Assembly: GCA_037893225.1 (NCBI GenBank)
Contig: JAZGUH010000363.1
Coordinates: 558,001-622,000, forward strand
Source: Hippasteria phrygiana
Lineage: Eukaryota; Echinodermata; Asteroidea; Valvatida; Goniasteridae
Reading direction: 5' to 3'
DNA length: 64,000 nt
Part shown: piece after piece, positions 14,743-41,300 of the stretch
Layout of the letters: each line of letters opens with the position of its first letter
How positions within the stretch are numbered: the first letter of the stretch is position 1
Made by a program: the position numbers and the translations under genes
Notes under the pieces: generated by a model
Seen by the model: the letters and a program-made list of their open reading frames with translations, nothing else
Told to the model about the DNA's origin: nothing
Database searches by the model: none

Positions 14743-16732
14743 TAAGCGCTGTTTTGGTGCTGAACACAAAATAATTCTGCAGTTGGAGTAAATTCAATGA
14801 AAGATAAACAGTTAAAAAAAATTACTGGCATTATTCATGCTTTGTGTGATACATGAACTAATAAAGCTAGGAAAGTTTGATCTCAATCTGTCGTCCATAA
14901 ATTAACGAGAAATATAATGGAAAACCATTTTCGTTTAACATTGATGTTGTTCATGCACGTTCATGGGCGTCGATCGGTGTGGCACATGCCCTCCCTCACC
15001 CAATTTTGTAAGGGGGGGGGGGGGGGGTCGTCATATTATTTGTCCCCTCCCACTCTTTTTCCGTCCCCGAATAATTGATCTTTATAGTGGGAACAAGTGT
15101 GATGAATTTCATTAGCGTAAGTCAGGAAGTCAGGAATATTATTTTTATTGTTTAGCTCGTAAAGATTATGCTCCACAATGTCGGATTGCTGGTCCTTTCA
15201 TTAATGGATCGTATCGCTGTCACGGCGTTGATATGTGAAGGAGAGGGGGATATGGCCCTCTACTTTTCTATAAGGTTATCATTATCCCCACCGGGTATCC
15301 TAGTTCTTTTTATACTCTCCCCCCCCCCCCCCCGAATAAAAATTGTAGGCCTATTAGATACACGCTGATCCAATTACCGTTACGGTACATCTTAACGAAA
15401 ATACTAATATCCCAAATTAATGGGAAAAGATTGGTAAATTCTGACCCAAACAACTATGCCGATGCAAGACTCACGTGTTTTATATGGTCATGTGCGTCGG
15501 CCTAATGACCTAGTTTGATCAATATACCCGCTTGTCGTGCCAGACACGTTCGTAATTATGACGTATTTTACGGACGCAACGCTGCATATATACATGTATA
15601 TGTTTAACTCTAATCAAAGACGATTCCGTAGCAATTTCCACTTGTGAAGAGTTCATTCTTTTTTCAGACGAGTTATCAATACAGTTTTTACGCAGCAGCA
15701 TCTTCAGAGCCAATGACATACAGAGGGAAGTCTAGGACACCCCCCCCCCCCCCAAAAAAAATGGCCCCAAACTTTAAACTTCCCATTTAAGTCATTTTGG
15801 TGAATACAGAATTATTAATGTCTTTGTCAACGTACATCAATCGTGCGGTATGCAGAGCGATACATGACTATGCAGAGCGATACATGATGACGTCCATTAG
15901 CGCTGTTGCAGAAACGTCTGCAATATCTATTTGTGGATTAACCCCCACCCCCCCTCCCCCCACATACATATGACACCTTGTGTGGTACTTTTTGACTTGT
16001 ATTAGATTTCCGCGCTGCGCGTTATAATAGATTTATGAGGCGTGATTAGTACCGCGACACGTTATTTTACTCCTCTTTAAAAGCAGCAAATTAATCTATA
16101 ACTTTATGTCATTAAAGAGTCCCTTTATGGTGTGCTGGCCTTTGCCCATCCACGTCCCCCGTCAAGTTTTAACTATTAGGCAGTATGTAACTTAATTTGT
16201 ACAATCCACAGGTATTGGGATATATACTTTAGATGTCATCAAAATTTGAAAAAGAAACATTTTAAAGGTACGATCCGACTTCCCATTTGATGAAATCAAG
16301 GCGAAAAATACCGTGTCAGTGGCGTGCATGCGCTTGAAAATGCCAGCATACGAATTAATCGGGACGGATCAAGGGGGGGGGGGGAAACAATCCCCCATCC
16401 CCACCCCTGCTCGTTGCCAATTTTTTTTTGATTAGTGCATTTTTTGCTTGTAGGGGCCTATGCATACATTTTGAAACCCCAAAATGCATAGGGGTACGAT
16501 TTCGCGTTTACGAGTAAGAACAAAACAAATATGGCGGCGCCACCAACGTCGGCAAAGAGTAACTGATCCCCCCCCCTCCCCCTCCCCCCTCCCCCTCCCC
16601 CCTCCCCCCCCCCCCCCTCCCCCCCTCCCCCCCTCCCCCCCCCCCGGAAAATTTTATACGGAAGCGAAAACATTTGGGGGGTCCAAAAAATTCCAACCGC
16701 ACCCCAACCCCGCAAAAATCATGGATCAGCCC
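14743..16732. other. FB-1 interior, G/C-tract-rich
   Basis: Homopolymer runs lie near 15014-15027 (G), 15321-15334 (C), 15740-15753 (C), 16373-16384 (G) and a C/T-rich stretch at 16567-16646. A CATGGGCGTCGAT segment near 14964 resembles 30841-30853, where it also precedes a G/C tract. No gene is supported. Confidence 0.5.
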
Positions 16733-19123
16733 CTGAAGTTGACAATTTGGAACGTTTATACAGGGTATGTAAATTCATTGGTACAATATACAGGTTTTGT
16801 AGGATGTATTTAATAACTTCTGCAAAAAAGAAAAAGGTCATAAAAATGACCGATAACGATTTGAAAAATGGGATCCGGCTGCCGGTTTGAAAAATATGGT
16901 CGAAAAACACTATTTCCGTTCCCACGGTGTATTACGTGCATATATACGCTTGAAAAGGCCAAAAACAATGAAGTTGTCATTTCAAAACTGTTTGGGTTAT
17001 GTAACTTCATTTGTACAATATACAGGTTGTAGGATATATTTAATAACTTCTCCAAACAAAAGTAGTAAAAATGACAGATAACGATTTTAAAGGTAGGATC
17101 CGGCTTCCCCCTTTGATGATATAAGGTCGGAAAAAAACGAGTGTGTAACGTTTCCATGCATTACGTGCGTACGCTTGAAAAGGCCAAAAGAAGTTGTCAT
17201 TTATGAACTGTTTGGGGTATGTTACTTCGTTTTGACAATAAACATGTACTGTAGGATATATTTCATAACTTCTGCAAAAAGAACAAATCCATAAAAAGAC
17301 AGATAACGATTTTAAAGGTAGGATCCGGCTTTCCTCTTTGATGATGGTCGAAAAAAACGAGTGTGTAAAACGTTTCCATGCATTACGTGCGTACGCTTGA
17401 AAAGGCCAAAATGAAGTTGTCATTTATGAACTGTTCGGGGGTATGTTACTTCGTTTTGACAATAAACATGTACTGTAGGATATATTTCATAACTTCTGCA
17501 AAAAGAAAAAATCCATAAAAAAGACAGATAACGATATTAAAGGTAGGATCCGGCTTCCCGTTTTGATGAGATTATGGTCGGGGAAAAAACTGTGTACGTT
17601 TCCATGCATTACGTGCGTACGCTTGAAAAGGCCAAAATGAAGTTGTCATTTAAAAACTGTTCGGGGGTATGTAACTTCATTTTTACAAATAACGCTATGA
17701 TAGGATATATTTAATAAATTCTGCCAAAAGAAAAAATTCCATAAAAAAGACAGATAACGATTTTAAAGGTAGGATCCGGATGCCCGATTTGATGAGATAC
17801 GGTCGAAAAAAATAATGTGTCCGTCTCTGTGCATTATACGTGCATGCGCTTGACAATGGCAACATGAAATTGTCAATTAAGAACTGTTCGGAGGTATATT
17901 TCTTCATTTGTACAATATAAAAGTGTGGTTGGGTATCTTTTATACATTATGTCCAAAGAACAAGTCCGAATAATGACAGATAACGATTTTAGAAGAAGGA
18001 TCCGGCTGCCCGCTTTGATAAAATACAGTCGAAAAATACTTTGTACGTGGCCGTACATTACGTATACGTGCGTGCGATTGAAAATGCCAACGCGAAGTTG
18101 TCAAGTTGGAATTGTTAGGGACCGGTGGTATGTACCTTTATTTGTCTAATGTACAGGTATTGTAGGATATATTTTACACATTCTGTCAAAAGAACAAGTC
18201 CAAAAAATGACAGATAACGTTTTCAAAAGGAGGATCCGGCTTCCCTCTTTGATGAGATACGGTCGAAAAAAATAATGTGTCCGTCTCTAGTGCAATATAC
18301 GTGCATGCGCTTGACAATGGCAACATGAAATTGTCAATTAAGAACTGTTCAGAGGTATATTTCTTCATTTGTACAATATAAAAGTGTGGTTGGGTATTTT
18401 GTATACATTATGTCCAAAGAACAAGTCCGAATAATGACAGATAACGATTTTAGAAAAAGGATCCGGCTGCCCGCTTTGATAAAATACGGTCGAAAAATAA
18501 TGTGTACGTGGCCTGTGGCCATGTATTACGTACATACGTGCGTGCAGAAATTGCCAACGCAAAGTTTATATTGAAGAACTGTTTGGGGGCACATGTAACT
18601 TCATTATTAAAATATACGGTATGGTATGATATATTTAATAACGTTTGTAAAAAGAACAAGTCAGGAAAACAAAAGAGAACGATTTTAAAGGTAGGATCCG
18701 GATGCCCGTTTTAATGAGATACGGTCGAATCAATTGTTCTTGGCCGTCTATTACGTATAGTGAGCACACACGTACATGTACGTACGCAGACTGACCGTTC
18801 CGTCCTCGGTGTTGTTTCGGCGCGGGGAGATCACCGGTGTGCAAACAATAGATAACTGACTTTATTAGCGCCCTCTATACTGTACTGCTGTATTTGTGCA
18901 GCAAGCTAGCGTTGCGTGTCGGGGTATTACGGCCTTCGAAAACTGAAATGTTCTGGTTAAATATAACCTTTCCTTCGGTGTTTTGTATACCTAAAAGCAA
19001 TTTACGTGTATTCTAATGTTATTTCTGTGATTGATTTCCTTTTTACAATCAATCAATCATTTTAAATGGTGGATCCGACTAGGTCCGACTAGGTCCGACA
19101 GGATCCGACTTTTACCAACCTCC
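16733..19123. repeat. FB-1 right arm (nine ~228-bp units)
   Basis: Nine tandem units, each with GGATCCGG (near 16870, 17097, 17321, 17549, 17774, 17999, 18233, 18461, 18696), are spaced 223-235 bp. They are inverted relative to the left arm. The outer domain 18760-19080 mirrors 10240-10555, and GTCCGACTAG-type 10-bp repeats close the element. The arm is about twice the length of the left arm, which points to unequal expansion. Confidence 0.8.
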
Positions 19124-19335: not shown

Positions 19336-19535
19336 CTTGTCCACTTTGTTTGTGACCTCGTCGTATTCTCCGAACGCGTGTGATATGCGACTAGTGTTAA
19401 TTATTTGAATGCAATGTTAAATCTGCATGTCGAACCTTAACCACACCTGCTGTAAACTATATTTAGCCTGATAAAAGTCGAATATTCAGCAACATACATA
19501 CGTCATGTGGGTAGCCACGTCAAGTTGCCAACTGA

Positions 19536-19920
19536 CCTGGCGGAAGCTAGCCCGAGATTCAGCACGCGATTCAGCCTGCGATTCAGCCCGCGATTCAGCC
19601 CGCGATTCGCAATAGGGCCCGCGATTCGCCCGATCAGAGCGGCCGCATATAGAAAACTAGAATCCATCCGACAAAAGGAGTTCTTTTTTTTAATGAAATC
19701 ACTGGATTCAGGCAACGAATTTTCGAAAAATATCAAGAAATTACAAACCAATTTTGCTTGAATTTTCAGAATAGGTATAGGCAAAGCTGTACATATTATA
19801 CTGAACGATATTTTACGTGTATTTTTTATGAAATAATTTGTCAATTCGCGAGGGCCCATTTCAAAAGCTTCTCTACATCAATTCCTTTCGGCTCAGCACA
19901 ATAGCTTCTGTTTAAAAGAA
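19536..19920. repeat. FB-2 left outer domain
   Basis: After the terminal CCTGGCGG, five to six degenerate 12-bp units (GCGATTCAGCCC) occupy about 19554-19630, followed by a unique stretch. The whole domain is repeated inverted at 36004-36390 with few differences; both copies are close to 385 bp. Open frames within it on both strands are simply the arginine/serine reading of the 12-bp repeat. Confidence 0.8.
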
Positions 19921-22900
19921 AGTGTACCACACACGTTTTGGAAAATTCACATTTTTCTTTCATATTCATAATTCCCACCTTCCTGGGCACACTTAATTTC
20001 AGCAAGGGCCTATTTCAAGAATGGCTTCTGCTCCAATTAGCCGCTTAAAGACGGACAATTTTAAAGAAAATTTGGAAATGCGGTATTGTAGTTCGGGTGG
20101 AATGCCGTCTTTGAGAGAAAGTGTACCGCACATGTTTTGGAAAATTCATATTTTTCTTTCATATTCATAATTCCCACCTTCCTGGGCACACTTAATTTCA
20201 GCAAGGGCCTATTCCAAGAATGGCTTCTGCTCCAATTAGCCGCTTAAAGGCGGACCATTTTTCAGAACATTTGAAAATGCGTTATTAAGAGTTTCGGGTG
20301 GAATGCCGTCTTTGAGAGAAAGTGTACCGCACATGTTTTGGAATATTCATATTTTTCTTTCATATTCATAATTCCCACCTTCCTGGGCACACTTAATTTC
20401 AGCAAGGGCCTATTCCAAGAATGGCTTCTGCTCCAATTAGCCGCTTAAAGACGGACCATTTTTAAGAGAATTTGGAAATGCGGTATTTGGAATACCGTCT
20501 TTGACAGAAAGTGTACCGCACATGTTTTGGAATATGCACATTTTTCTTTCATATTCATAATTCCCACCTTCCTGGGCACACTTAATTTCAGCAAGGGCCT
20601 ATACCAAGAATGGCTTCTGCTCCAATTAGCCGCTTAAAGACGGACCATTTTCCCAGAATATTTGAAAATGCGGTATTTGGAGTTCGGGTGAAATGCCGTC
20701 TTTGAAAGAAAGTGTACCGCACATGTTTTGGAATATTCATATTTTTCTTTCATATTCATAATTCCCACCTTCCTGGGCACACTTAATTTCAGCAAGGGCC
20801 TATTCCAAGAATGGCTTCTGCTCCAATTAGCCGCTTAAAGACGGACCATTTTTAAGAACATTTGGAAATGCGGTATTGTAGTTCGGGTGGAATGCCGTCT
20901 TTGAGAGAAAGTGTACCGCACATGTTTTGGAAAATTCATATTTTTCTTTCATATTCATAATTCCCACCTTCCTGGGCACACTTAATTTCAGCAAGGGCCT
21001 ATTCCAAGAATGGCTTCTGCTCCAATTAGCCGCTTAAAGGCGGACCATTTTTCAGAACATTTGAAAATGCGGTATTTGGAATACCGTCTTTGAGAGAAAG
21101 TGTACCGCACATGTTTTGGAAAATTCACATTTTTCTTTCATATTCATAATTCCCACCTTCCTGGGCACACTTAATTTCAGCAAGGGCCTATTCCAAGAAT
21201 GGCTTCTGCTCCAAATAGCCGCTTAAAGGCGGACCATTTTTCAGAACATTTGAAAATGCGTTATTAGGAGTTTCGGGTGGAATGCCGTCTTTGAGAGAAA
21301 GTGTACCGCACATGTTTTGGAAAATTCATATTTTTCTTTCATATTCATAATTCCCACCTTCCTGGGCACACTTAATTTCAGCAAGGGCCTATTCCAAGAA
21401 TGGCTTCTGCTCCAATTAGCCGCTTAAAGGCGGACCATTTTTCAGAACATTTGAAAATGCGGTATTTGGAATACCGTCTTTGAGAGAAAGTGTACCGCAC
21501 ATGTTTTGGAAAATTCACATTTTTCTTTCATATTCATAATTCCCACCTTCCTGGGCACACTTAATTTCAGCAAGGGCCTATTCCAAGAATGGCTTCTGCT
21601 CCAAATAGCCGCTTAAAGGCGGACCATTTTTCAGAACATTTGAAAATGCGTTATTAGGAGTTTCGGGTGGAATGCCGTCTTTGAGAAAAAGTGTACCGCA
21701 CACGTTTTGGAAAATTCATATTTTTCTTTCATATTCCTAATTCTCACCTTCCTGGGCACACTTAATTTCAGCAAGGGCCTATTCCAAGAATGGCTTCTGC
21801 TCCAATTAGCCGCTTAAAGACGGACCATTTTTCAGAACATTTGAAAATGCGTTATTAAGAGTTTCGGGTGGAATGCCGTCTTTGAGAGAAAGTGTACCGC
21901 ACATGTTTTGGAAAATTCACATTTTTCTTTCATATTCATAATTCCCACCTTCCTGGGCACACTTAATTTCAGCAAGGGCCTATTCCAAGAATGGCTTCTG
22001 CTCCAATTGGCCGCTTAAAGACGGACCATTTTCCAGAATATTTGAAAATGCGGTATTTGGAGTTCGGGTGAAATGCCGTCTTTGAGAGAAAGTGTACCGC
22101 ACACGTTTTGGAAAATTCATATTTTTCTTTCATATTCATAATTCTCACCTTCCTGGGCACACTTAATTTCAGCAAGGGCCTATTCCAAGAATGGCTTCTG
22201 CTCCAATTAGCCGCTTAAAGACGGACCATTTTTAAGAAAATTTGGAAATGCGGTATTGTAGTTCGGGTGGAATGCCGTCTTTGAGAGAAAGTGTACCGCA
22301 CATGTTTTGGAAAATTCATATTTTTCTTTCATATTCATAATTCCCACCTTCCTGGGCACACTTAATTTCAGCAAGGGCCTATTCCAAGAATGGCTTCTGC
22401 TCCAATTAGCCGCTTAAAGGCGGACCATTTTTCAGAACATTTGAAAATGCGTTATTAAGAGTTTCGGGTGGAATGCCGTCTTTGAGAGAAAGTGTACCGC
22501 ACATGTTTTGGAAAATTCATATTTTTCTTTCATATTCATAATTCCCACCTTCCTGGGCACACTTAATTTCAGCAAGGGCCTATTCCAAGAATGGCTTCTG
22601 CTCCAATTAGCCGCTTAAAGGCGGACCATTTTTCAGAACATTTGAAAATGCGTTATTAAGAGTTTCGGGTGGAATGCCGTCTTTGAGAGAAAGTGTACCG
22701 CACATGTTTTGGAATATTCATATTTTTCTTTCATATTCATAATTCCCACCTTCCTGGGCACACTTAATTTCAGCAAGGGCCTATTCCAAGAATGGCTTCT
22801 GCTCCAATTAGCCGCTTAAAGACGGACCATTTTTAAGAGAATTTGGAAATGCGGTATTTGGAATACCGTCTTTGAGAGAAAGTGTACCGCACATGTTTTG

Positions 22901-25900
22901 GAATATTCATATTTTTCTTTCATATTCATAATTCCCACCTTCCTGGGCACACTTAATTTCAGCAAGGGCCTATACCAAGAATGGCTTCTGCTCCAATTAG
23001 CCGCTTAAAGACGGACCATTTTCCCAGAATATTTGAAAATGCGGTATTTGGAGTTCGGGTGAAATGCCGTCTTTGAAAGAAAGTGTACCGCACATGTTTT
23101 GGAATATTCATATTTTTCTTTCATATTCATAATTCCCACCTTCCTGGGCACACTTAATTTCAGCAAGGGCCTATTCCAAGAATGGCTTCTGCTCCAATTA
23201 GCCGCTTAAAGACGGACCATTTTTAAGAACATTTGGAAATGCGGTATTGTAGTTCGGGTGGAATGCCGTCTTTGAGAGAAAGTGTACCGCACATGTTTTG
23301 GAAAATTCATATTTTTCTTTCATATTCATAATTCCCACCTTCCTGGGCACACTTAATTTCAGCAAGGGCCTATTCCAAGAATGGCTTCTGCTCCAATTAG
23401 CCGCTTAAAGGCGGACCATTTTTCAGAACATTTGAAAATGCGGTATTTGGAATACCGTCTTTGAGAGAAAGTGTACCGCACATGTTTTGGAAAATTCGCA
23501 TTTTTCTTTCATATTCATAATTCCCACCTTCCTGGGCACACTTAATTTCAGCAAGGGCCTATTCCAAGAATGGCTTCTGCTCCAAATAGCCGCTTAAAGG
23601 CGGACCATTTTTCAGAACATTTGAAAATGCGTTATTAGGAGTTTCGGGTGGAATGCCGTCTTTGAGAGAAAGTGTACCGCACATGTTTTGGAAAATTCAT
23701 ATTTTTCTTTCATATTCATAATTCCCACCTTCCTGGGCACACTTAATTTCAGCAAGGGCCTATTCCAAGAATGGCTTCTGCTCCAATTAGCCGCTTAAAG
23801 GCGGACCATTTTTCAGAACATTTGAAAATGCGGTATTTGGAATACCGTCTTTGAGAGAAAGTGTACCGCACATGTTTTGGAAAATTCACATTTTTCTTTC
23901 ATATTCATAATTCCCACCTTCCTGGGCACACTTAATTTCAGCAAGGGCCTATTCCAAGAATGGCTTCTGCTCCAAATAGCCGCTTAAAGGCGGACCATTT
24001 TTCAGAACATTTGAAAATGCGTTATTAGGAGTTTCGGGTGGAATGCCGTCTTTGAGAAAAAGTGTACCGCACACGTTTTGGAAAATTCATATTTTTCTTT
24101 CATATTCCTAATTCTCACCTTCCTGGGCACACTTAATTTCAGCAAGGGCCTATTCCAAGAATGGCTTCTGCTCCAATTAGCCGCTTAAAGACGGACCATT
24201 TTTCAGAACATTTGAAAATGCGTTATTAAGAGTTTCGGGTGGAATGCCGTCTTTGAGAGAAAGTGTACCGCACATGTTTTGGAAAATTCACATTTTTCTT
24301 TCATATTCATAATTCCCACCTTCCTGGGCACACTTAATTTCAGCAAGGGCATATTCCAAGAATGGCTTCTGCTCCAATTGGCCGCTTAAAGACGGACCAT
24401 TTTCCAGAATATTTGAAAATGCGGTATTTGGAGTTCGGGTGAAATGCCGTCTTTGAGAGAAAGTGTACCGCACACGTTTTGGAAAATTCATATTTTTCTT
24501 TCATATTCATAATTCTCACCTTCCTGGGCACACTTAATTTCAGCAAGGGCCTATTCCAAGAATGGCTTCTGCTCCAATTAGCCGCTTAAAGACGGACCAT
24601 TTTCTCAGAATATTTGAAAATGCGGTATTTGGAGTTCGGGTGAAATGCCGTCTTTGAAAGAAAGTGTACCGCACACGTTTTGGAAAATTCATATTTTTCT
24701 TTCATATTCATAATTCTCACCTTCTTGGGCACACTTAATTTCAGCAAGGGCCTATTCCAAGAATGGCTTCTGCTCCAATTAGCCGCTTAAAGACGGACCA
24801 TTTTTAAGAACATTTGAAAATGCGTTATTAAGAGTTTCGGGTGGAATGCCGTCTTTGAGAGAAAGTGTACCGCACATGTTTTGGAAAATTCAAATTTTTC
24901 TTTCATATTCATAATTCCCACCTTCCTGGGCACACTTAATTTCAGCAAGGGCCTATTTCAAGAATGGCTTCTGCTCCAATTAGCCGCTTAAAGACGGACC
25001 ATTTTTAAGAAAATTTGGAAATGCGGTATTGTAGTTCGGGTGGAATGCCGTCTTTGAGAGAAAGTGTACCGCACATGTTTTGGAAAATTCATATTTTTCT
25101 TTCATATTCATAATTCCCACCTTCCTGGGCACACTTAATTTCAGCAAGGGCCTATTCCAAGAATGGCTTCTGCTCCAATTAGCCGCTTAAAGACGGACCA
25201 TTTTTAAGAGAATTTGGAAATGCGGTATTTGGAATACCGTCTTTGAGAGAAAGTGTACCGCACATGTTTTGGAATATTCATATTTTTCTTTCATATTCAT
25301 AATTCCCACCTTCCTGGGCACACTTAATTTCAGCAAGGGCCTATTCCAAGAATGGCTTCTGCTCCAATTGGCCGCTTAAAGACGGACCATTTTCCAGAAT
25401 ATTTGAAAATGCGGTATTTGGAGTTCGGGTGAAATGCCGTCTTTGAGAGAAAGTGTACCGCACACGTTTTGGAAAATTCATATTTTTCTTTCATATTCAT
25501 AATTCTCACCTTCCTGGGCACACTTAATTTCAGCAAGGGCCTATTCCAAGAATGGCTTCTGCTCCAATTAGCCGCTTAAAGACGGACCATTTTCTCAGAA
25601 TATTTGAAAATGCGGTATTTGGAGTTCGGGTGAAATGCCGTCTTTGAAAGAAAGTGTACCGCACACGTTTTGGAAAATTCATATTTTTCTTTCATATTCA
25701 TAATTCTCACCTTCTTGGGCACACTTAATTTCAGCAAGGGCCTATTCCAAGAATGGCTTCTGCTCCAATTAGCCGCTTAAAGACGGACCATTTTTAAGAA
25801 CATTTGAAAATGCGTTATTAAGAGTTTCGGGTGGAATGCCGTCTTTGAGAGAAAGTGTACCGCACATGTTTTGGAAAATTCAAATTTTTCTTTCATATTC

Positions 25901-26784
25901 ATAATTCCCACCTTCCTGGGCACACTTAATTTCAGCAAGGGCCTATTTCAAGAATGGCTTCTGCTCCAATTAGCCGCTTAAAGACGGACCATTTTTAAGA
26001 AAATTTGGAAATGCGGTATTGTAGTTCGGGTGGAATGCCGTCTTTGAGAGAAAGTGTACCGCACATGTTTTGGAAAATTCATATTTTTCTTTCATATTCA
26101 TAATTCCCACCTTCCTGGGCACACTTAATTTCAGCAAGGGCCTATTCCAAGAATGGCTTCTGCTCCAATTAGCCGCTTAAAGACGGACCATTTTTAAGAG
26201 AATTTGGAAATGCGGTATTTGGAATACCGTCTTTGAGAGAAAGTGTACCGCACATGTTTTGGAATATTCATATTTTTCTTTCATATTCATAATTCCCACC
26301 TTCCTGGGCACACTTAATTTCAGCAAGGGCCTATTCCAAGAATGGCTTCTGCTCCAATTAGCCGCTTAAAGACGGACCATTTTTAAGAGAATTTGGAAAT
26401 GCGGTATTTGGAATACCGTCTTTGAGAGAAAGTGTACCGCACATGTTTTGGAATATTCATATTTTTCTTTCATATTCATAATTCCCACCTTCCTGGGCAT
26501 ACTTAATTTCAGCAAGGGCCTATTCCAAGAATGGCTTCTGCTCCAATTAGCCGCTTAAAGACGTACCATTTTCCCACAATATTTGAAAATGCGGTATTTG
26601 GAGTTCGGGTGAAATGCCGTCTTTGAAAGAAAGTGTACCGCACATGTTTTGGAATATTCATATTTTTCTTTCATATTCATAATTCCCACCTTCCTGGGCA
26701 CACTTAATTTCAGCAAGGGCCTATTCCAAGAATGGCTTCTGCTCCAATTAGCCGCTTAAAGGCGGACCATTTTTCAGAACATTT
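19921..26784 (+). repeat. FB-2 left array: 35 copies of a 189-201-bp unit
   Basis: I counted 35 ATGGCTTCTGC sites from 20021 to 26732, spaced 189, 199, 200 or 201 bp. Each unit contains, in order: AAGTGTACCGCACATG, a T-rich TTTTTCTTTC block, ATTCCCACCTTCCTGGGC, TTAATTTCAG, and then an ATG in good initiation context encoding MASAPISRLK. Length classes reflect a deletion of about 12 bp in the spacer after the short reading frame. The last unit runs without a break into the 942-aa gene. In the other units the frame stops after 14-22 codons. Confidence 0.9.
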
Positions 26785-29560
26785 TCACTTTCGTGATGCA
26801 ATGTATTGGATTGGTCTTCTCGTACAAGCAAGCACCCTTGACGAAATCGATGAAATCATACTGTCTATGACAATAATAACATGTTCGGAGTTTGCAACGG
26901 ATCTTGTAAAATCAAACTTTGAGAAACTAAAATCTAAAATTGAACATCAGAATTCCACCCAAAATGATTACTTGGAAGAGAATGTATCTGAACACGCCGA
27001 TGGAGAGGGAGACCCTTCCACATCAGACTTCAACAACTTGGCTGAGAGCGAAACAAGCAGCCTTGATATTTCGGAGGACGAATATATTCAAAAAGGATAC
27101 AACTCACCATTTAAGGCTCATTTTCAAGGGATTATCGAACTAGGAAAAAGGGAAATTGACAAATATGGCAAGGGTACAAACACTGCAGTACAGCATCTCA
27201 AAAATCCCTACTTAGGGAAAGAATTTCTGAATTATCTTTTGCAATTTCCACTCTCAAACATAGCTAGCTGGTCAGCACTTTTACTACATGATCATGGAAG
27301 GCACGGAACATCGCAGATTTATGAAAACTATTCAAAGATGTACAGGGTTCTAGAAAATTCAAAATTTCAGAATATATCAAGGGACAATCGGACACAAGGG
27401 ATAGTTGAAAAATCCATGCAAGAGACGAAAAGAGCGAAATTGATGTACAATAGGGTTGGAAAATTGATTGATTTCGTTCTCATTTACGAAAGAGACATGC
27501 TCCCCCTACAAAGGGAATTCGTTGAAGCATTCTGCACCTCTAAACGGACCATCCGTAAACGATCTTTGAAACTGTCTACTGAGAAATGGTCCAAACGTCC
27601 AAAAACAAGCACACCAACAAATAAAGGTGTCTACCTTACTCCCCCAACTCAGGAATTGCGGTTTAAAGACGGGTCAAACAAAAAAAGGGGAAAGCAAGAA
27701 CAACCAAAACCGGAAAGCGCAAACGCCTTTCTTCACAAAGTGAAAAAGAACCACTCGTCTAAACACAAGAAAACCGCAGTCGTGGACACGACAAATCAGT
27801 CAACATCGTCTTTACTCAGGGGGATTTCAAACAATCAAGTATCTTGTTGGTGGATTTCAACCATCCAAGCTGTTCGACCATTCATTGATGCAACAAAAAT
27901 CAATGTTGCTAAGTTTCAAGGAAGCGAAGTATTTCTTTGGCGAAACCTATTGAAGCTTTTTGAATCATTAAACAATGGAAATACATCCGCTGTTCCATTC
28001 CACGAAGTGAAGCCATTGGTAGAAGAGAGTGCATTGCAAATGGGAATTAATTCCAAACACCAGCAAGATGCTGCCGAATTTTATTCGCAACTGATTGTAC
28101 CTTTTTTGGGGGAGTCTTGTCTCACCAACGAAATAGAAATTATAAAATCAGTGATGTGCCTACGTTGTGACGAAAGCGAACCAACAGAAAATTCAAGTTC
28201 GGGAGTGTTGCCGGTTCCTCTGAATAAATCGACTTTAGATAAATGCATTCAACAGGTTTTTGAAGATGAAATGATTTCGGACGTAAACTGTGATTTTTGC
28301 CGCGAGACATTGTGTAAAAAGATCATGACAACGCGCATCGTAAATTGTCCGTCTGTGTTAGTCGTGCAACTACTACGGACCCGTGTCGTTGAAAACAAAC
28401 TTGAAAAAATTACTACAGAAGTTCTCCCCAGTGTAGAAATAGATTTACGCCGATTCTGTTTGAACAAAACACCCGCCGTTTACCGCCTGAGATCTGTAAT
28501 AACGCACGAGGGTCAATCCCTACAAAGCGGACATTATAAAGCCTTTGTTAGGGAAAATTTGTACGGTACTGGTTCAGTCACGAAATTCGACGACTCACGG
28601 GTAGACCGCATAGGCACGTTTGCTTTTACCACCCAGATATCGGAATCTGGTTACATATACTTTTTTGAAAGAACAGATGTTCACAGGAAAGACAAAGACT
28701 GCACGGGCTCATGCACTTCAGATGACAATTTCGTGGTAAGCGATAAGGAGAGAGAATTTGTGAACATTCTATGGTGTTCGCTCAATGAAAAAAACCTGCA
28801 TAGCGTTGCAGTCGAAAACACAACGAACACCGAGTTCTTAACATTTTCCCAATTGGCAACGATTAATTCTTCTCCCTCCCCTGCTATTGTGAAGCGCCTG
28901 AAACATGCATACACAAATTATCAACCAGGATGGTTGGGAGAAGGAGTGATAGATTTTTACCTGAACCAGCTTTGCAAACTGTCACATAATGATCCCCACC
29001 AGAAAAGAAAGTTTGGGTCCGTGCAGTGCTTTGTGACCAAGAAGATATTGCATAATAAAATAACTCCAGAAACGTATCGATCAGTGGCAAAACACTGCTT
29101 TGTAGGTATGCGTTTCTGCGAGGTGATGTTATTTCCCCTATTAGAAAATATGCAATTCACCCTGTACGCCATCGACACTAAAAGTAGCAGGATAGATTGT
29201 TTGGATTCCATGAGTGACAGGAAAGACACCAGGCAGAAGAGGTTAGCCCATGGTCATGCATTCAGGGAGTTTTTTCAGAACGGTCTAATCAAGAGATACT
29301 GGAATAATACTCACGGTGTTCTTCAGTGTGAAAAAATGATTAACATAAGACAAGCACCATGTCTGCAGCAAACAGATTCAGCAAGTTGTGGTGTTTATTG
29401 CTGCTTGTTTGCCGAGGAAATGTGTCTGGGAGAGAGAAAACTTCACATAGGCAATGATAGTGAAGAACTCCGAATGTATCTCACGGTTCAGCTAATACAA
29501 CGATCCAATATTGTTGACCCTCAGCTTCAACAATTATATTCAACTTATATGAATTTGTAA
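26732..29560 (+). CDS. USP + Ulp1-like double protease of foldback element
   Basis: An uninterrupted 942-aa frame. Residues 1-17 are encoded by the last array unit. Residues about 120-265 (SALLLHDHGRHG; then SRDNRTQGIVEKSMQETKRA) resemble, from memory, the C-terminal part of transposases of invertebrate foldback/MULE elements; the catalytic DDE part is absent. A lysine-rich linker follows (270-350). Residues 361-648 form a USP-type (C19) deubiquitinase: Cys box GISNNQVSCWW (Cys372), QQDAAEF (444-450), two CxxC pairs (476/479, 520/523), SGHYKAF (His601) and FDDSRV (619-624). Residues ~730-905 are Ulp1-like (C48): WLGEGVIDFYL (Trp734), YAID...LDSM (Asp825), LQQTDSASCG (Gln880, Cys886). The usual HW of that family is Gln808-Phe809. 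AATAAA overlaps the stop. Predicted role: removal of ubiquitin/SUMO-like tags in the host cell; substrate unknown. Confidence 0.8.
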   Translation: MASAPISRLKADHFSEHFHFRDAMYWIGLLVQASTLDEIDEIILSMTIITCSEFATDLVKSNFEKLKSKIEHQNSTQNDYLEENVSEHADGEGDPSTSDFNNLAESETSSLDISEDEYIQKGYNSPFKAHFQGIIELGKREIDKYGKGTNTAVQHLKNPYLGKEFLNYLLQFPLSNIASWSALLLHDHGRHGTSQIYENYSKMYRVLENSKFQNISRDNRTQGIVEKSMQETKRAKLMYNRVGKLIDFVLIYERDMLPLQREFVEAFCTSKRTIRKRSLKLSTEKWSKRPKTSTPTNKGVYLTPPTQELRFKDGSNKKRGKQEQPKPESANAFLHKVKKNHSSKHKKTAVVDTTNQSTSSLLRGISNNQVSCWWISTIQAVRPFIDATKINVAKFQGSEVFLWRNLLKLFESLNNGNTSAVPFHEVKPLVEESALQMGINSKHQQDAAEFYSQLIVPFLGESCLTNEIEIIKSVMCLRCDESEPTENSSSGVLPVPLNKSTLDKCIQQVFEDEMISDVNCDFCRETLCKKIMTTRIVNCPSVLVVQLLRTRVVENKLEKITTEVLPSVEIDLRRFCLNKTPAVYRLRSVITHEGQSLQSGHYKAFVRENLYGTGSVTKFDDSRVDRIGTFAFTTQISESGYIYFFERTDVHRKDKDCTGSCTSDDNFVVSDKEREFVNILWCSLNEKNLHSVAVENTTNTEFLTFSQLATINSSPSPAIVKRLKHAYTNYQPGWLGEGVIDFYLNQLCKLSHNDPHQKRKFGSVQCFVTKKILHNKITPETYRSVAKHCFVGMRFCEVMLFPLLENMQFTLYAIDTKSSRIDCLDSMSDRKDTRQKRLAHGHAFREFFQNGLIKRYWNNTHGVLQCEKMINIRQAPCLQQTDSASCGVYCCLFAEEMCLGERKLHIGNDSEELRMYLTVQLIQRSNIVDPQLQQLYSTYMNL

Positions 29561-30438
29561 TAAATAAGATGAACCCTAATGACAATTTGCGTCATTTTGG
29601 TATTTTACAATATTATCTAATCTCTGTTGGTGCAATGTATTGATTATGCTTGATCTTGCCTTTGACAAGTACAATCGCTTCATTTAAAACTTTATATCAC
29701 ATTGGAAAGGCTCTTATAATTTATATTCATATGCAATCGGGAAATCACCTTTTTAACGTAACACTGAAATTTAGAAAGCTGCATGCTACACTGGGTAAAG
29801 TGAAACAATTTGCATCTGACTGGTCATACACCTATGACGTCACATTGTTTACGGAAGCTTGCCAAATATTGTCCTCGTGTAGCGTTCATTCTATTGCGTG
29901 GTTTGCTGTTGAGCTGTCAAGACGTCGTGCAGACAGCACCGCTTGTTATATTAATTTCACTTTTGGAATTTGTTTTAATGATTTCCTTTTAACCTTAATT
30001 GAATTTGTATAGATTTGTTTAAATAGCTTTTAGTAATACATTGTAGTTCAACTTATATTTTTCCAAATTCTTTGTGTGTTTTACGTGTCACTAACATTGG
30101 TAGCTTAGGGCCTATACATAAATGGTGATGATTTTTTAATTTACGATTTATTCTCTGCGCATGAATTTAAGTATTTCTGTCACAGTCATTATTTAAGCGC
30201 CTTCGTCATAACATTTTGCACTTTCTCAAATCATTTCAATTGTCTGACTTGCATTTAGTATTAAGCAAGAACATTATTAGTTTTTCCGGTTTTGATCACA
30301 CATTTTGTTTGTTAATTTCGAGTACGTGTAACAATTAATCTTTTTCAAATTTCAGATTTGAACATTTTTTTATTCCTTTCTCATATTAACTTGCTGTTAT
30401 TAAACTTTGATTGCGAAAGTTGTGATTTAAAGGTGATC
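29561..30438. other. FB-2 interior, no recognised feature
   Basis: The 3' flank of the protease gene. A 120-codon open frame at 29650-30012 has no protein-like signature and I do not call it. Confidence 0.45.
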
Positions 30439-30855
30439 ATGGCCGATAAACGTAGCAAACCTAACCGTTCTTTGGAGGATGTTTTTCAGTTGCTTTCAGG
30501 GGGAGGCTGTCCTGTTGGAATGAGTCGTGACTAGCGGCGAACTGTTGGAAGATTTGCAAGCTGCTTCAGACTATATAGAAGGTATAATGCCAAAGATGTA
30601 TACGTGTCCATATAACCATTCGAGTTTCTTTTAGGATTCATTGCAAGTTCAACTGACGAATTTGACGCAAGGGCAATTAGCAGCATTGAAAATGGAACTC
30701 TTCACAAACATTGGTTCTTTGGTTTACAAACATTGGCTCAATATTTTCAAGTAAAAATAAATCGCAATTCAAATTGTTTTGAACTTGACAATTGCCCTCA
30801 ATTTGAACATAATTCACCGGTGTCTGTCTTCATCAGGGTTCATGGGCGGCGATAA
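30439..30855 (+). pseudogene. Frameshifted second gene of FB-2 (weakly OTU-like)
   Basis: ATG 30439 opens 31 codons (MADKRSKPNRSLEDVFQLLS...) ending at TAG 30532. One base out of phase, a second frame continues from about 30533 as GELLEDLQAASDYIEG. It crosses a 53-bp GT-AG gap (30582-30634, donor AAG|GTATAA, acceptor TTTTAG|GAT) in frame, and runs on through ENGTLHKHWFFGLQTLAQYF to a stop at 30853-30855, where a G/C-tract repeat begins. A single indel near 30525 would join the parts. The ENGT..HW..GLQTLAQ..QVKI pattern resembles the central strand-helix of OTU cysteine proteases (WGG..EL.ALA....I), but the OTU Cys and His motifs are not seen, so this is only a suggestion. Confidence 0.35.
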
Positions 30856-31450
30856 CGAGGTGAGGGGACGGAGGGACACGTCCCCCAATATTTTGGGAGG
30901 AGGGGTCGGCTATGGCAGTGTCCCCCCCCCCCCCCCCCCCCAATAATTTCGTGAATACGCAAAGATCGGCACACACTTTCAAATATTTCCCAGGATACAG
31001 AAGATGTACACCGAGTGGAAAATGCTTAACAATTATTCTTGGGTGTCTGCTTTTTTCTTCCGTCCCCCAACCTTGACGACAACTCGCCGCCGCTGTCGGG
31101 GTTCACAAAGCTGCATGCACATTCATTGTTGTGTGCAACCCGTTTATCAGTTATATTGGATGATTATTAGGCCGTGTCCGAAATGGGCGTCTAGAGCTAC
31201 AGCTACGGCTACGTCACGCGTAGTTGTAATGGACGAACACCTATAAACAATAGCCATAGACAAGCGATTCGGACGCAGCTTTAAGATATATTAATTGTAC
31301 ACTTTTAGGGTTTACATATTAATTTCAAAATAAAAATAATCGGTTCAAAAATTATCTTGCATGTTGGAGCGTCATAGTCAGGGAGGTACTACATACTTTA
31401 CATTGTATTGAACAGATTACCTAAATATACATGTGTATATATATGTGTAT
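30856..31450. other. FB-2 interior with poly-C tract
   Basis: A C-rich tract (30924-30942) sits in a segment similar to 14960-15065 in FB-1. An open frame at 31004-31246 is not protein-like. No gene is supported. Confidence 0.45.
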
Positions 31451-34400
31451 ACATTTTCTCTCAAAGACGGTATTCCACCCGAACTCCAAATACCGCATTT
31501 CCAAATTTTCTTAAAAATGGTCCGTCTTTAAGCGGCTAATTGGAGCAGAAGCCATTCTTGGAATAGGCCCTTGCTGAAATTAAGTGTGCCCAGGAAGGTG
31601 GGAATTATGAATATGAAAGAAAAATATGAATTTTCCAAAACATGTGCGGTACACTTTCTCTCAAAGACGGCATTCCACCCGAACTACAATACCGCATTTC
31701 CAAATTTTCTTAAAAATGGTCCGTCTTTAAGCGGCTAATTGGAGCAGAAGCCATTCTTGGAATAGGCCCTTGCTGAAATTAAGTGTGCCCAGGAAGGTGG
31801 GAATTATGAATATGAAAGAAAAATATGAATATTCCAAAACATGTGCGGTACACTTTCTTTCAAAGACGGCATTTCACCCGAACTCCAAATACCGCATTTT
31901 CAAATATTCTGGGAAAATGGTCCGTCTTTAAGCGGCTAATTGGAGCAGAAGCCATTCTTGGAATAGGCCCTTGCTGAAATTAAGTGTGCCCAGGAAGGTG
32001 AGAATTATGAATATGAAAGAAAAATATGAATTTTCCAAAACGTGTGCCGTACACTTTCTCTCAAAGACGGTATTCCAAATACCGCATTTTCAAATGTTCT
32101 GAAAAATGGTCCGCCTTTAAGCGGCTAATTGGAGCAGAAGCCATTCTTGGAATAGGCCCTTGCTGAAATTAAGTGTGCCCAGGAAGGTGGGAATTATGAA
32201 TATGAAAGAAAAATATGAATTTTCCAAAACATGTGCGGTACACTTTCTCTCAAAGACGGCATTCCACCCGAACTACAATACCGCATTTCCAAATGTTCTG
32301 AAAAATGGTCCGCCTTTAAGCGGCTAATTGGAGCAGAAGCCATTCTTGGAATAGGCCCTTGCTGAAATTAAGTGTGCCCAGGAAGGTGGGAATTATGAAT
32401 ATGAAAGAAAAATATGAATATTCCAAAACATGTGCGGTACACTTTCTTTCAAAGACGGCATTTCACCCGAACTCCAAATACCGCATTTTCAAATATTCTG
32501 GGAAAATGGTCCGTCTTTAAGCGGCTAATTGGAGCAGAAGCCATTCTTGGTATAGGCCCTTGCTGAAATTAAGTGTGCCCAGGAAGGTGGGAATTATGAA
32601 TATGAAAGAAAAATATGAATATTCCAAAACATGTGCGGTACACTTTCTCTCAAAGACGGTATTCCAAATACCGCATTTCCAAATTCTCTTAAAAATGGTC
32701 CGTCTTTAAGCGGCTAATTGGAGCAGAAGCCATTCTTGGAATAGGCCCTTGCTGAAATTAAGTGTGCCCAGGAAGGTGGGAATTATGAATATGAAAGAAA
32801 AATATGAATATTCCAAAACATGTGCGGTACACTTTCTCTCAAAGACGGCATTCCACCCGAAACTCTTAATAACGCATTTTCAAATGTTCTGAAAAATGGT
32901 CCGCCTTTAAGCGGCTAATTGGAGCAGAAGCCATTCTTGGAATAGGCCCTTGCTGAAATTAAGTGTGCCCAGGAAGGTGGGAATTATGAATATGAAAGAA
33001 AAATGTGAATTTTCCAAAACATGTGCGGTACACTTTCTCTCAAAGACGGCATTCCACCCGAAACTCTTAATAACGCATTTTCAAATGTTCTGAAAAATGG
33101 TCCGCCTTTAAGCGGCTAATTGGAGCAGAAGCCATTCTTGGAATAGGCCCTTGCTGAAATTAAGTGTGCCCAGGAAGGTGGGAATTATGAATATGAAAGA
33201 AAAATATGAATTTTCCAAAACATGTGCGGTACACTTTCTCTCAAAGACGGCATTCCACCCGAAACTCTTAATAACGCATTTTCAAATGTTCTGAAAAATG
33301 GTCCGCCTTTAAGCGGCTAATTGGAGCAGAAGCCATTCTTGGAATAGGCCCTTGCTGAAATTAAGTGTGCCCAGGAAGGTGGGAATTATGAATATGAAAG
33401 AAAAATATGAATTTTCCAAAACATGTGCGGTACACTTTCTCTCAAAGACGGCATTCCACCCGAACTACAATACCGCATTTCCAAATTTTCTTAAAAATGG
33501 TCCGTCTTTAAGCGGCTAATTGGAGCAGAAGCCATTCTTGGAATAGGCCCTTGCTGAAATTAAGTGTGCCCAGGAAGGTGGGAATTATGAATATGAAAGA
33601 AAAATATGAATATTCCAAAACATGTGCGGTACACTTTCTTTCAAAGACGGCATTTCACCCGAACTCCAAATACCGCATTTTCAAATATTCTGGGAAAATG
33701 GTCCGTCTTTAAGCGGCTAATTGGAGCAGAAGCCATTCTTGGAATAGGCCCTTGCTGAAATTAAGTGTGCCCAGGAAGGTGAGAATTAGGAATATGAAAG
33801 AAAAATATGAATTTTCCAAAACGTGTGCGGTACACTTTCTCTCAAAGACGGCATTTCACCCGAACTCCAAATACCGCATTTTCAAATATTCTGGAAAATG
33901 GTCCGTCTTTAAGCGGCCAATTGGAGCAGAAGCCATTCTTGGAATAGGCCCTTGCTGAAATTAAGTGTGCCCAGGAAGGTGGGAATTATGAATATGAAAG
34001 AAAAATGTGAATTTTCCAAAACATGTGCGGTACACTTTCTCTCAAAGACGGCATTCCACCCGAAACTCTTAATAACGCATTTTCAAATGTTCTGAAAAAT
34101 GGTCCGTCTTTAAGCGGCTAATTGGAGCAGAAGCCATTCTTGGAATAGGCCCTTGCTGAAATTAAGTGTGCCCAGGAAGGTGAGAATTAGGAATATGAAA
34201 GAAAAATATGAATTTTCCAAAACGTGTGCGGTACACTTTTTCTCAAAGACGGCATTCCACCCGAAACTCCTAATAACGCATTTTCAAATGTTCTGAAAAA
34301 TGGTCCGCCTTTAAGCGGCTATTTGGAGCAGAAGCCATTCTTGGAATAGGCCCTTGCTGAAATTAAGTGTGCCCAGGAAGGTGGGAATTATGAATATGAA

Positions 34401-36003
34401 AGAAAAATGTGAATTTTCCAAAACATGTGCGGTACACTTTCTCTCAAAGACGGTATTCCAAATACCGCATTTTCAAATGTTCTGAAAAATGGTCCGCCTT
34501 TAAGCGGCTAATTGGAGCAGAAGCCATTCTTGGAATAGGCCCTTGCTGAAATTAAGTGTGCCCAGGAAGGTGGGAATTATGAATATGAAAGAAAAATATG
34601 AATTTTCCAAAACATGTGCGGTACACTTTCTCTCAAAGACGGCATTCCACCCGAAACTCCTAATAACGCATTTTCAAATGTTCTGAAAAATGGTCCGCCT
34701 TTAAGCGGCTATTTGGAGCAGAAGCCATTCTTGGAATAGGCCCTTGCTGAAATTAAGTGTGCCCAGGAAGGTGGGAATTATGAATATGAAAGAAAAATGT
34801 GAATTTTCCAAAACATGTGCGGTACACTTTCTCTCAAAGACGGTATTCCAAATACCGCATTTTCAAATGTTCTGAAAAATGGTCCGCCTTTAAGCGGCTA
34901 ATTGGAGCAGAAGCCATTCTTGGAATAGGCCCTTGCTGAAATTAAGTGTGCCCAGGAAGGTGGGAATTATGAATATGAAAGAAAAATATGAATTTTCCAA
35001 AACATGTGCGGTACACTTTCTCTCAAAGACGGCATTCCACCCGAACTACAATACCGCATTTCCAAATGTTCTTAAAAATGGTCCGTCTTTAAGCGGCTAA
35101 TTGGAGCAGAAGCCATTCTTGGAATAGGCCCTTGCTGAAATTAAGTGTGCCCAGGAAGGTGGGAATTATGAATATGAAAGAAAAATATGAATATTCCAAA
35201 ACATGTGCGGTACACTTTCTTTCAAAGACGGCATTTCACCCGAACTCCAAATACCGCATTTTCAAATATTCTGGGAAAATGGTCCGTCTTTAAGCGGCTA
35301 ATTGGAGCAGAAGCCATTCTTGGTATAGGCCCTTGCTGAAATTAAGTGTGCCCAGGAAGGTGGGAATTATGAATATGAAAGAAAATATGAATATTCCAAA
35401 ACATGTGCGGTACACTTTCTCTCAAAGACGGTATTCCAAATACCGCATTTCCAAATTCTCTTAAAAATGGTCCGTCTTTAAGCGGCTAATTGGAGCAGAA
35501 GCCATTCTTGGAATAGGCCCTTGCTGAAATTAAGTGTGCCCAGGAAGGTGGGAATTATGAATATGAAAGAAAAATATGAATATTCCAAAACATGTGCGGT
35601 ACACTTTCTCTCAAAGACGGCATTCCACCCGAAACTCTTAATAACGCATTTTCAAATGTTCTGAAAAATGGTCCGCCTTTAAGCGGCTAATTGGAGCAGA
35701 AGCCATTCTTGGAATAGGCCCTTGCTGAAATTAAGTGTGCCCAGGAAGGTGGGAATTATGAATATGAAAGAAAAATATGAATTTTCCAAAACATGTGCGG
35801 TACACTTTCTCTCAAAGACGGCATTCCACCCGAACTACAATACCGCATTTCCAAATTTTCTTTAAAATGGTCCGTCTTTAAGCGGCTAATTGGAGCAGAA
35901 GCCATTCTTGAAATAGGCCCTTGCTGAAATTAAGTGTGCCCAGGAAGGTGGGAATTATGAATATGAAAGAAAAATGTGAATTTTCCAAAACGTGTGTGGT
36001 ACA
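31451..36003 (-). repeat. FB-2 right array: 23 inverted copies of the unit
   Basis: I counted 23 inverted start-codon sites between 31555 and 35905, spaced 188-201 bp. They read on the minus strand, so both arrays point into the element. The sequence of unit types matches blocks of the left array. The right array is 12 copies shorter. No gene begins from its innermost unit; the sequence beyond it (31450 leftward) is unrelated to coding sequence. Confidence 0.9.
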
Positions 36004-36390
36004 CTTTCTTTTAAACAGAAGCTATTGTGCTGAGCCGAAAGGAATTGATGTAGAGAAGCTTTTGAAATGGGCCCTCGCGAATTGACAAATTATTTCATAA
36101 AAAATACACATAAAATAGCGTTCTGTATAATATGTACAGCTTTGCCTATACCTATTCTGAAAATTCAAGCAAAATTGGTTTGTAATTTCTTGATATTTTT
36201 CGAAAATTCGTTGCCTGAATCCAGTGATTTCATAAAAAAAAAAAACTCCTTTTGTTGGATGGATTCTAGTTTTCTATATGCGGCCGCTCTGATCGGGCGA
36301 ATCGCGGGCCCTATTGCGAATCGCGGGCTGAATCGCGGGCTGAATCGCAGGCTGAATCGCGTGCTGAATCTCGGGCTAGCTTCCGCCAGG
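36004..36390. repeat. FB-2 right outer domain
   Basis: An inverted copy of 19536-19920, with the 12-bp GGGCTGAATCGC units at about 36300-36372 and terminal CCGCCAGG, immediately followed by the TGCCAACTGA duplication. Confidence 0.8.
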
Positions 36391-36400
36391 TGCCAACTGA

Positions 36401-38316: not shown

Positions 38317-41300
38317 ATGGCAGAAAACGCTTCCAAGATTTTGGAGGAAATCTTCGCAGATAGCGGTTCAGATATGTCCGATGATGAATCTTCTCTAGCG
38401 ACATCTGACGACAGTGATGGCGAAGCTATGCAAACTTCGTCAACTTCGTCGGGAAAGCCAAACTTCAGGTAGGGAGGTTCATAAAACTTAAAAGGTTCAA
38501 CTTGGCTAGTCTCGAAATGTTTCGCATCCGTCATTCATGTCTATAAAAATATTACTGGGCTACTGTAATGTAACCTTTGCTTTTTAATGTTCTTTCGCGG
38601 GGAAAATCATAAAAAGCACTGAACGTTTAAGTTTGAAATCCAATTAGAAATTGATGAAAATATTGAATTTGTACCTGAAGTATGCAAAGTCAAGTGTGAT
38701 GATTTTGCATCCAAATCAAAGTTCAGATAGGACAGCAAATGCAATGCTGAAAAAAAAAACACATTTCAATTCCACTGAATTGGGCCTTATTCAATTACTA
38801 AAAAAAAGACTGGCGGCAATAATAATCTATAAAAAGGAGGAGATTTGAATGTAATTAAAAACTACAATTTGTATTAATTAATGTACATGTACCCCCGAAA
38901 TCAAAATATTAATCACAATTTCCTATAAGAACATTGGTCTACAAATGAACAGCAGCCTCGTACATGTTTCTGAATGTCCGTATTTTTACTTGTTCGCTAA
39001 GAATAAGATTGATAAGTAAGATACTAGAAATATTAACTACAATCTGTGTCTTATGTGAATTTAGGGATAAAAGGCCTACAGCAATTAAATCATGGCTGCA
39101 CTTATTTCAGTGGGAACACTAGATATGAGCATCCAAAAACAGCATTGTATGGACAGTTTTGTCATTAAAGGTAATACAACATTTGCGACCACCCACCCCC
39201 CCCCCCCCCCCCACCCCACACAGACAAGAAAAAAAAACTACCTCATTATTATGAATGACCGTACTTGACAGTCAAGAATAGCCTCGAGCATCCTGTGAAA
39301 TCAGGGCACCTGGTGTGCTGTTCTGTTTAACCAAACTGACATTTTGTAGCAATTTCCAAAGATGGTTGGCCAACCGGCGTCCAAACAAATACTAAACCCC
39401 GGATCAATCCGTTGGACCCAAAAAACAAAAGCTAATGTTGTATCCCAGCTAGCACCAGACGGTTGGCCCAGGCTTGGCCCAGGCGTGGCAAAATCTGGCA
39501 TGGGTTGGCCCAGCCGTGCCAACCCAGGGCCAGTGCTGGCCCACAGCTGGCATCATTTCCTAATATAAACTGGCTATTGCCAGCTCTGGGCCAGTGCTGG
39601 GCCAGTCTGGGCACCACGTGAAGTCGTTTTTAGAGGGTTTTGTTTTGTTTTGTTTTGTTTTGTTTTGTTTTGTTTTGTTTTGTTTTGTTTTGTTTTGTTT
39701 TGTTTTGTTTTGTTTTGTTTTGTTTTGTTTTGTTTTGTTTTGTTTTGTTTTGTTTTGTTTTGTTTTGTTTTGTTTTGTTTTGTTTTGTTTTGTTTTGTTT
39801 GCCGGGGTGTAGGTTTTTTTTTTTTGGGGGGGGGGGGGTTGTTTGTTTTGTTGTTATTTGCCTTTTTTTTTTTTTTTTTAATTGTTTTTCGAATAAAAAA
39901 ATATACCTTGTATATACCCAGAAGCAAATATGGATTAAAATAAAATCAACGAAATTAAAGTACTCCTAAAAACAGTTGCTTTTTTGTGGTGTTTGTTGTT
40001 TAATGAAGGCCCTACTTGTCTTAGCGCATGAACACATTGCACATGTTGCACCGGCCGCCTTTGCAAATTCAATTAAAAAAATTTACAAGAGATCATTAAA
40101 CCTTTTAAAAACATGTAAAACGATTATGCTACAGCATATTTTTTTAAGTTTAATATTATTTTTAGTAAGTTAAAATTGTGCTAAAAATTTAAAATATATC
40201 ATGAAAATCAGTTATTTATTTGAATCTCTAGAATTCATACGCTAAGCTTAAGTCAGTTGAGTATGTCTGGTTCCCTAATCAACATTTACTGTTGAGTATA
40301 GTAATTTCTACGGGAACCAGACTCTTTCCCTCCATGCCGGTTTGCTGGTTGTCGACGCCGTACGTGCCTCAAAACTTCCCTGAATCTTTCTTCATCCTTC
40401 ATTATTCTTACCCGATTGTGGTAAATTCTAAGGTAATTACAATCCATTGAAGAAGTGGATAATCTTAATTCTTGGATGTTTACTTACATCTAACAAAACA
40501 TGTTTATTTATTCCTCATTGCTCAATCCTGCTGCTGACGTGTGCATACGTTTGTACATGTAGGAATCCTGCTGACAGTGCACTATTCATGCTATTGTGGG
40601 TGTACATACACGTGTGCAGAAACTCTCTTTTCCCTCCATGCCTGTTTGATGGTATGACACTGTGCCTTAATCTTTCTTCATTCTTCATTATTCTTACCTG
40701 ATTAAGGTAACAAGCATCTGAACTAGTCGGTAAGGTGGATTATTTACTTACAAAGCATCAAAACATGCAAGTTTTATTCCTCTCGTGGCCATTGCCGTAT
40801 TGCTCAATCTAAGCCTGGTTGTGCATGTAATGTACATACATGTACAGTGTAGGCCTGTGAGTCTGTGGCATTTTATGTACATATAGAAGTGGTACTGGTA
40901 GGGCATATTTTCGTAGTTGAACATGGAAAGCCAGTGATTAGGACCAATCTTTATTTTTCTGCCTGCAATTGCCCTGTGTACTTGTGTCATTGGTCTGGTT
41001 TACAAATTCATCATTCTCTACAAGGCTAAACTTCTCAACTTTTTTCCAAAACATTTTCTATTTACATGTAGGCTTATTTTTTGTTGGCATCAGTGGATTA
41101 ATTTCACTTCATTTAGTACATTTTATAGGCCTAACAAGTTGAAGTCCAATACATGTATGCATACTGGTGTGTAAATGTCCAGACACTGTGAGCATGAAGC
41201 GTATTAGGTATGGTGACTCCTATTGGACAAAGCGTCGACGAATCAAAGAAAATACTGTTGCTGCAATGCGAGAAGTGGAAAAATTGTTAAATCGGGAAGA

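Follow-up and report, generated by a model that had tools for sequence, protein, structure and literature searches.

How does a transposon come to carry the start of its own gene in every repeat unit of its arms, and which of the two came first? This question is raised by a foldback-type element in a 64,000-nucleotide stretch of the genome of the sea star Hippasteria phrygiana (contig JAZGUH010000363.1 of assembly GCA_037893225.1, positions 558,001 to 622,000, forward strand), referred to here as the window and numbered from its first letter. In the foldback papers considered here, tandem arms are described as non-coding and of uncertain role. A preliminary description of the stretch had identified a foldback transposon with tandem-repeat arms and had proposed that these arms were copied from the start of the element's gene. 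The analysis reported here supports the former and does not bear out the latter. We consider the element to be a foldback, probably Mutator-like, in which satellite-type expansion of the inverted repeat took place and the innermost unit provides the 5' end of the gene.

Structure of the element

The element spans positions 19536-36390 (16,855 bp) and has long inverted arms of tandem repeats. It is flanked on both sides by TGCCAACTGA (left copy at 19526..19535, right copy at 36391..36400, neither assigned to a strand), and the two copies, which are equal at 10/10 bases and abut the inverted ends, constitute a target-site duplication. Each arm of the inverted repeat opens with a unique end domain, at 19536..19917 on the + strand, with the terminus CCTGGCGGAAGCTAGCCCG, and at 36009..36390 on the - strand, and these 382-bp domains are 98.4% identical to each other. 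Five 12-bp subterminal repeats were detected in each end by Tandem Repeats Finder (TRF), at 19549..19608 (+ strand) and 36318..36377 (- strand). The inverted arms, the 10-bp duplication and the subterminal repeats thus uphold the earlier assignment as a foldback transposon, together with the perfect direct repeat and inverted ends on which it had been based.

The left array (19918..26784, + strand) and the right array (31450..36008, - strand) were delimited by TRF, by unit motifs and by an exact 18-mer, AAGAATGGCTTCTGCTCC, which comprises the 4 bases 5' of an ATG and the first 14 coding bases. Anchoring on the unit motif gave 35 units on the left and 23 inverted units on the right, with a spacing of 188-201 bp, the left units being 189-201 bp long, and TRF returned 34.8 copies at 19917-26784 and 23.0 at 31450-36009, all of these being counts as assembled. 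The 18-mer was found in 58/58 units (35 occurrences on the + strand and 23 on the - strand, window-wide), each pointing inwards, while an 89-base core block around it was letter-perfect in 29/58 units (15 on the + strand, 14 on the - strand). The unit length, copy numbers and inward orientation given in the preliminary description were thereby reproduced, as was its statement that each unit contains the sequence upstream of the gene, the start codon and about 17 codons.

The innermost left unit, L35 (26629..26784, + strand), supplies the upstream sequence, the ATG and the first 17 codons of an uninterrupted 942-codon open reading frame (ORF) at 26732..29560 on the + strand. The ATGs of the other 57 units open ORFs of 14-49 codons, and it is the innermost left unit only that opens the long one. 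An AATAAA motif, a putative polyadenylation signal judging by its sequence, lies over the stop codon (29559..29564, + strand). No gene was recognised in the post-gene interior at 29561..31449 (no strand assigned), where stop-free stretches reach at most 122 codons and the ORFs were not run against Pfam. A search of the window with Rfam at gathering thresholds gave 0 matches.

When the gene unit was excluded, the remaining 57 units comprised 28 distinct sequences, which were grouped into types by single linkage at no more than 3 differences. The order of types is JADFBCACAHEBAADFBCACAHEGIBDEGIBDDK in the left arm, followed by the gene unit, and JADFBCACAHEGBAAADFBCGBL in the right. The outermost 11 units follow an order common to both arms, and the inner units are rearranged, with blocks duplicated and reshuffled. 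Many units are identical, both within one arm and between arms. Over the outer 2,552 bp the arms differ by 10 substitutions and 1 gap (99.6% identity), and such near-identity is what one might expect if satellite reads had been collapsed or mirrored during assembly. The array lengths are, however, unequal, some unit variants are private to one arm, and the flanks share a matching target duplication. Taken with the rearranged inner order and with the substitutions and gap between the arms, these features make a simple mirrored artefact very unlikely. The pattern is instead that expected of unequal exchange within arms and copying between arms, which would be the mechanism at work.

Relationship between the gene start and the arm units

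The gene follows the unit sequence for 17 codons and 2 bases and then departs from it at a single clean point. The gene unit L35 is equal to unit R19 of the right arm over alignment columns 1-157, with zero differences, and comparison with L02, L06 and similar units showed one additional differing site, at column 27; over columns 1-158, units differ from one another by 5.2 on average. Since the gene unit falls inside the diversity of the units, the gene start is one of them and not visibly their ancestor. The gene lacks the tail of the unit, which is 44 alignment columns long. Beyond the shared segment, from codon 19 to position 27200, the gene gave no significant match to the unit or to the end domain in four comparisons (p 0.135-0.975).

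It could be envisaged, as the preliminary description had done, that a segment with the gene's promoter and its 17 initial codons was copied out, tandemly amplified and mirrored into both arms. That every unit holds the upstream sequence, the ATG and the initial codons of the gene fits such an origin, and so does the single point of departure, but this origin neither predicts a gene unit nested within the diversity of the others nor explains a 44-column tail that the gene lacks. Five sites vary within the 14 shared codons and none of them is synonymous (5/5 nonsynonymous, where 27/117 of the possible changes would be silent), which again speaks against it, and no protein-level constraint is visible at these sites. 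The reverse order, with the gene beginning in the innermost arm unit, fits these data at least as well. Homogenisation of the units could hide an original copying from gene to arm, and we therefore leave this order a minor, though by no means negligible, share of the probability. Thus, comparison of the arms with the gene start bears out their exact 5' identity, but does not bear out the gene as the source of the arms.

At no more than 3 edits, the unit anchor has one match in each end domain (19843 and 36083), lying 152 bp outside the anchor of the first unit. Judged on sequence, these degenerate matches hint that the module may have been part of the inverted repeat.

Conservation and possible function of the unit core

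Among the 28 distinct units, 12/109 columns vary in the core (columns 37-145, made up of 67 columns 5' of the ATG plus 14 codons), as against 23/57 beyond it (columns 146-202; Fisher p 3.4e-5) and 9/36 in columns 1-36. The core lies directly upstream of and over the ATG, and the unit may have promoter activity. Tandem promoters of this kind are known from the 5' monomers of mouse L1, in which a second monomer increases promoter activity (PMC9022269), and it is conceivable that selection favoured the arms because transcription of the gene rises with the number of units. However, 34 left units precede the gene unit, each bringing an ATG in the same context from which the ORF ends after 14-49 codons, so that read-through transcripts would bear many upstream ORFs, and the right arm is built of the same units while driving no recognised gene. 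We regard selection for promoter number as quite unlikely.

The sequence TTTCAG ends 18 bases 5' of the ATG within the conserved core, in L35 and other units alike, and resembles an acceptor site, either for 3' splicing or for a spliced leader. In Tm1, a comparable acceptor has been described ahead of the predicted start codon (PMC3169594). An exact 26-base unit pattern gave no match in viral and bacterial/archaeal collections, which is unsurprising for animal DNA. An inverted repeat across codon 17 was considered as proof of a unit older than the gene and was dropped on RNA fold z-scores and a shuffle test: with 60 shuffles for each of four units, it stood above the shuffles in one (p 0.03), did not in another (p 0.33) and was absent from two.

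The favoured reading and the evidence against it

We envisage that the element was moved, most likely, by a Mutator-like transposase acting in trans, and the present copy may itself be mobile. Starting from a module of ~200 bp within the terminal inverted repeat (TIR), satellite arrays would have grown through unequal exchange inside each arm and through copying between arms. This module would hold the conserved core of ~110 bp, including the start codon, and the UCH-Ulp1 gene would take its 5' end from the innermost left copy. Because this unit doubles as the gene's 5' end, the gene start should evolve in concert with the arms. The core would most likely be kept for its DNA, as a site of transposase binding and/or as a promoter, and not for its 14-17 codons. 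As to order, the inverted-repeat module would have come first and the gene would have been joined to it afterwards. The target duplication falls within the 8-10 bp of the Mutator type, being 10 bp here and 9 bp in a neighbouring element described below, and Mutator TIRs contain promoters and transposase sites (PMC3310237).

Several points weigh against this reading. The superfamily assignment rests on duplication length and architecture, because no transposase was recognised, and the architecture is not diagnostic, because Galileo, of the P superfamily, has similar arms (PMC3573991). The sample is a single copy of the element. Local alignment of the unit with the unique end domain gave p 0.16, and end-anchored alignment of six units to the end domain gave p 0.05-0.24 against shuffles; when random window segments were used for comparison, the latter alignment gave p 0.005-0.053, with 5/6 below 0.05, which is weakly above background. 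The column boundaries of the core were set post hoc and the units are related to one another, so that the Fisher p is optimistic and to be taken as indicative. Recent homogenisation of the units could mimic constraint, and with only five variable coding sites a weak constraint on the protein could have gone unseen. Finally, no strong RNA fold that would explain the unit was found in four unit types (z -1.56, -0.15, -0.59 and -0.88).

The 942-codon gene and its protein

The predicted protein carries two protease domains, a UCH domain at residues 364-645 (Pfam PF00443, 96.6 bits with a cut-off of 23.9, E 2.3e-27) and an Ulp1/C48 domain at residues 734-916 (PF02902, 38.4 bits with a cut-off of 20.7, E 1.6e-9). 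Residues 501-647, which include the His region, align to USP2. The catalytic triad of the UCH domain, placed by sequence motifs at C372, H601 and D620/D621, looks intact. With a domain above the cut-off and catalytic Cys, His and Asp in place by these motifs, the protein is predicted to belong to the UCH (USP) deubiquitinases. The Ulp1-like domain matched SENP2 at E 3.6e-4. Opposite the catalytic His of SENP2 the aligned position is occupied by Q808, and D825 and C886 are kept. The catalytic His-Asp-Cys of an Ulp1/SENP protease thus appears to be incomplete, and the glutamine at position 808 renders Ulp1-like activity doubtful.

No transposase was recognised in the protein by Pfam. Residues 1-363 gave no match in PDB up to E 10 or in Pfam up to E 1, and two matches below the Pfam cut-off fell within the protease regions, one to PF23329 (E 0.032) and one to PF00770, adenovirus endoprotease (E 0.074). 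The whole protein matched 0 NCBIfam families up to E 1 and nothing in the viral collection. A single-sequence fold was of no use and was set aside (mean predicted local distance difference test 34, predicted template modelling score 0.23).

The Ulp1 domain is associated with Zisupton (KDZ), which was considered on this account. It was rejected on the length of the target duplication, 8 bp in Zisupton (PMC12730594) and 10 bp here. Ulp1 domains are also present in Mutator elements of hydra and lancelet, and Ulp1 and ubiquitin hydrolase domains are recurrent in transposons (PMC2836005).

Comparison with known systems

Most foldbacks seem to belong to Mutator (PMC4079207). The closest parallels come from Tetris, a foldback of Drosophila virilis, in which the TIR consists of an outer flanking domain followed by tandem repeats of ~220 bp that are satellite-like, with target duplications of 8-10 bp and no transposase found (PMC4079207). 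Its TIRs reach up to 1.7 kb, in contrast to ~7.2 and 4.9 kb here, and its repeats share 37 bp with its own flanking domain; the corresponding comparisons of unit and end domain here gave p 0.16 in local alignment and p 0.005-0.24 in end-anchored alignment, depending on the background used. Tetris has no conserved ORF and, in the extracts of that report, no gene start in its repeats, unlike the element described here (PMC4079207).

Mutator-like elements also have long TIRs with promoters and transposase sites that may be tandemly duplicated (PMC3310237), and Tm1, a Mutator/foldback element, has composite foldback-like TIRs and duplications mostly of 8-10 bp (PMC3169594), as in the present case. 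In the tandem-TIR elements, however, whole TIRs are duplicated, as opposed to tens of short units here, and the extracted accounts give no start codon or coding segment in their repeats (PMC3310237, PMC3169594). Some Tm1 elements encode a transposase (PMC3169594), while none was recognised here.

Galileo resembles the element in having internal tandem repeats of ~210 bp within long TIRs and unequal copy numbers in the two arms (PMC3573991). Its tandem repeats contain transposase binding sites, and those of one subfamily bind the THAP domain of the transposase (PMC3688188). It differs in having 2-3 copies per TIR, TIRs of up to ~1.26 kb in the described species and a known transposase (PMC3573991).

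Outside foldbacks, the monomers of the mouse L1 5' untranslated region, which are ~200 bp long, offer a further comparison. They too are tandem, lie upstream of an ORF and act as a promoter, but L1 is a retrotransposon, its monomers are one-sided with no inverted arm, and a tether lies between the monomers and ORF1 (PMC9022269).

Among the matches listed for the open-access foldback literature (titles and abstract openings), none described arms that contain the start codon of a gene. The element differs from the known foldbacks in how large its arms are and in that unit and gene start are exactly identical.

A second foldback element and other features of the window

A second foldback element lies at 10185-19123, with a 9-bp target duplication (CTAGTACAA), 10-bp subterminal repeats, end domains and tandem units of ~225 bp. 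Anchoring on GGATCC gave 4 units on the left and 9 on the right. Over 861 bp the identity of its outer arms is 95.5%, with 19 substitutions and 20 gap columns, and similarity among its units ranges from 51 to 97%, with the lowest figures coming from comparisons that involve a unit cut at an array edge. This divergence of arms and units suggests that it is probably older than the first element. An inward AATGAA is present in 9/13 of its units and an outward ATG motif in 7/13, and no stop-free stretch in its interior exceeds 164 codons.

With the arrays of the first element masked, blastn gave no match of more than 60 bases between the two elements; with nothing masked, the five best matches listed (E 5e-4) all fell in one poly-C tract, and tblastx found none at E 1e-3. 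A tblastn search with the 942-aa protein gave no match at E 1 in the window once the gene and arrays of the first element were set aside. The occurrence of the same plan twice, 393 bp apart, suggests that this foldback architecture is a general one in the genome.

Elsewhere in the window, an uninterrupted ORF of 496 aa at 51260-52750 encodes a piggyBac-like transposase (PF13843, E 2.3e-80), and a zinc finger (PF13842) lies at its C terminus. A 748-codon ORF at 41167-43413 gave no Pfam match at E 0.01, and to judge by eye it resembles invertebrate transposon proteins. Inverted repeats of ~310 bp, 94% identical and spanning ~1.1 kb at 57930-59053, probably represent a short non-autonomous element, and a perfect (GTTTT)n array of ~33 copies was detected by TRF at 39637-39800.

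Implications for foldback arms

As the unit and the gene share their exact 5' end, the arms of this element cannot count as inert, and exchange of units can rewrite the start of the gene. An unlikely extension of this would be that the arms are a maintained control array, with 57 decoy starts and a single module, the innermost, from which the protease gene is read. If so, unit exchange would constantly rewrite the promoter and start of the gene, protein would be made from transcripts that start in, or are spliced into, the last module only, and arm length would control the amount of the deubiquitinase, which in turn would facilitate transposition.

The element provides a natural setting in which to test the purpose of tandem arms, be it transposase sites, promoter number or upstream start codons. 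Arms of such length could also seed dispersed satellites, as has been proposed for Tetris (PMC4079207). Finally, a link between the ubiquitin/SUMO pathways and transposition has been proposed (PMC2836005), and a gene that combines UCH and Ulp1-like domains within a transposon is a further case in point.

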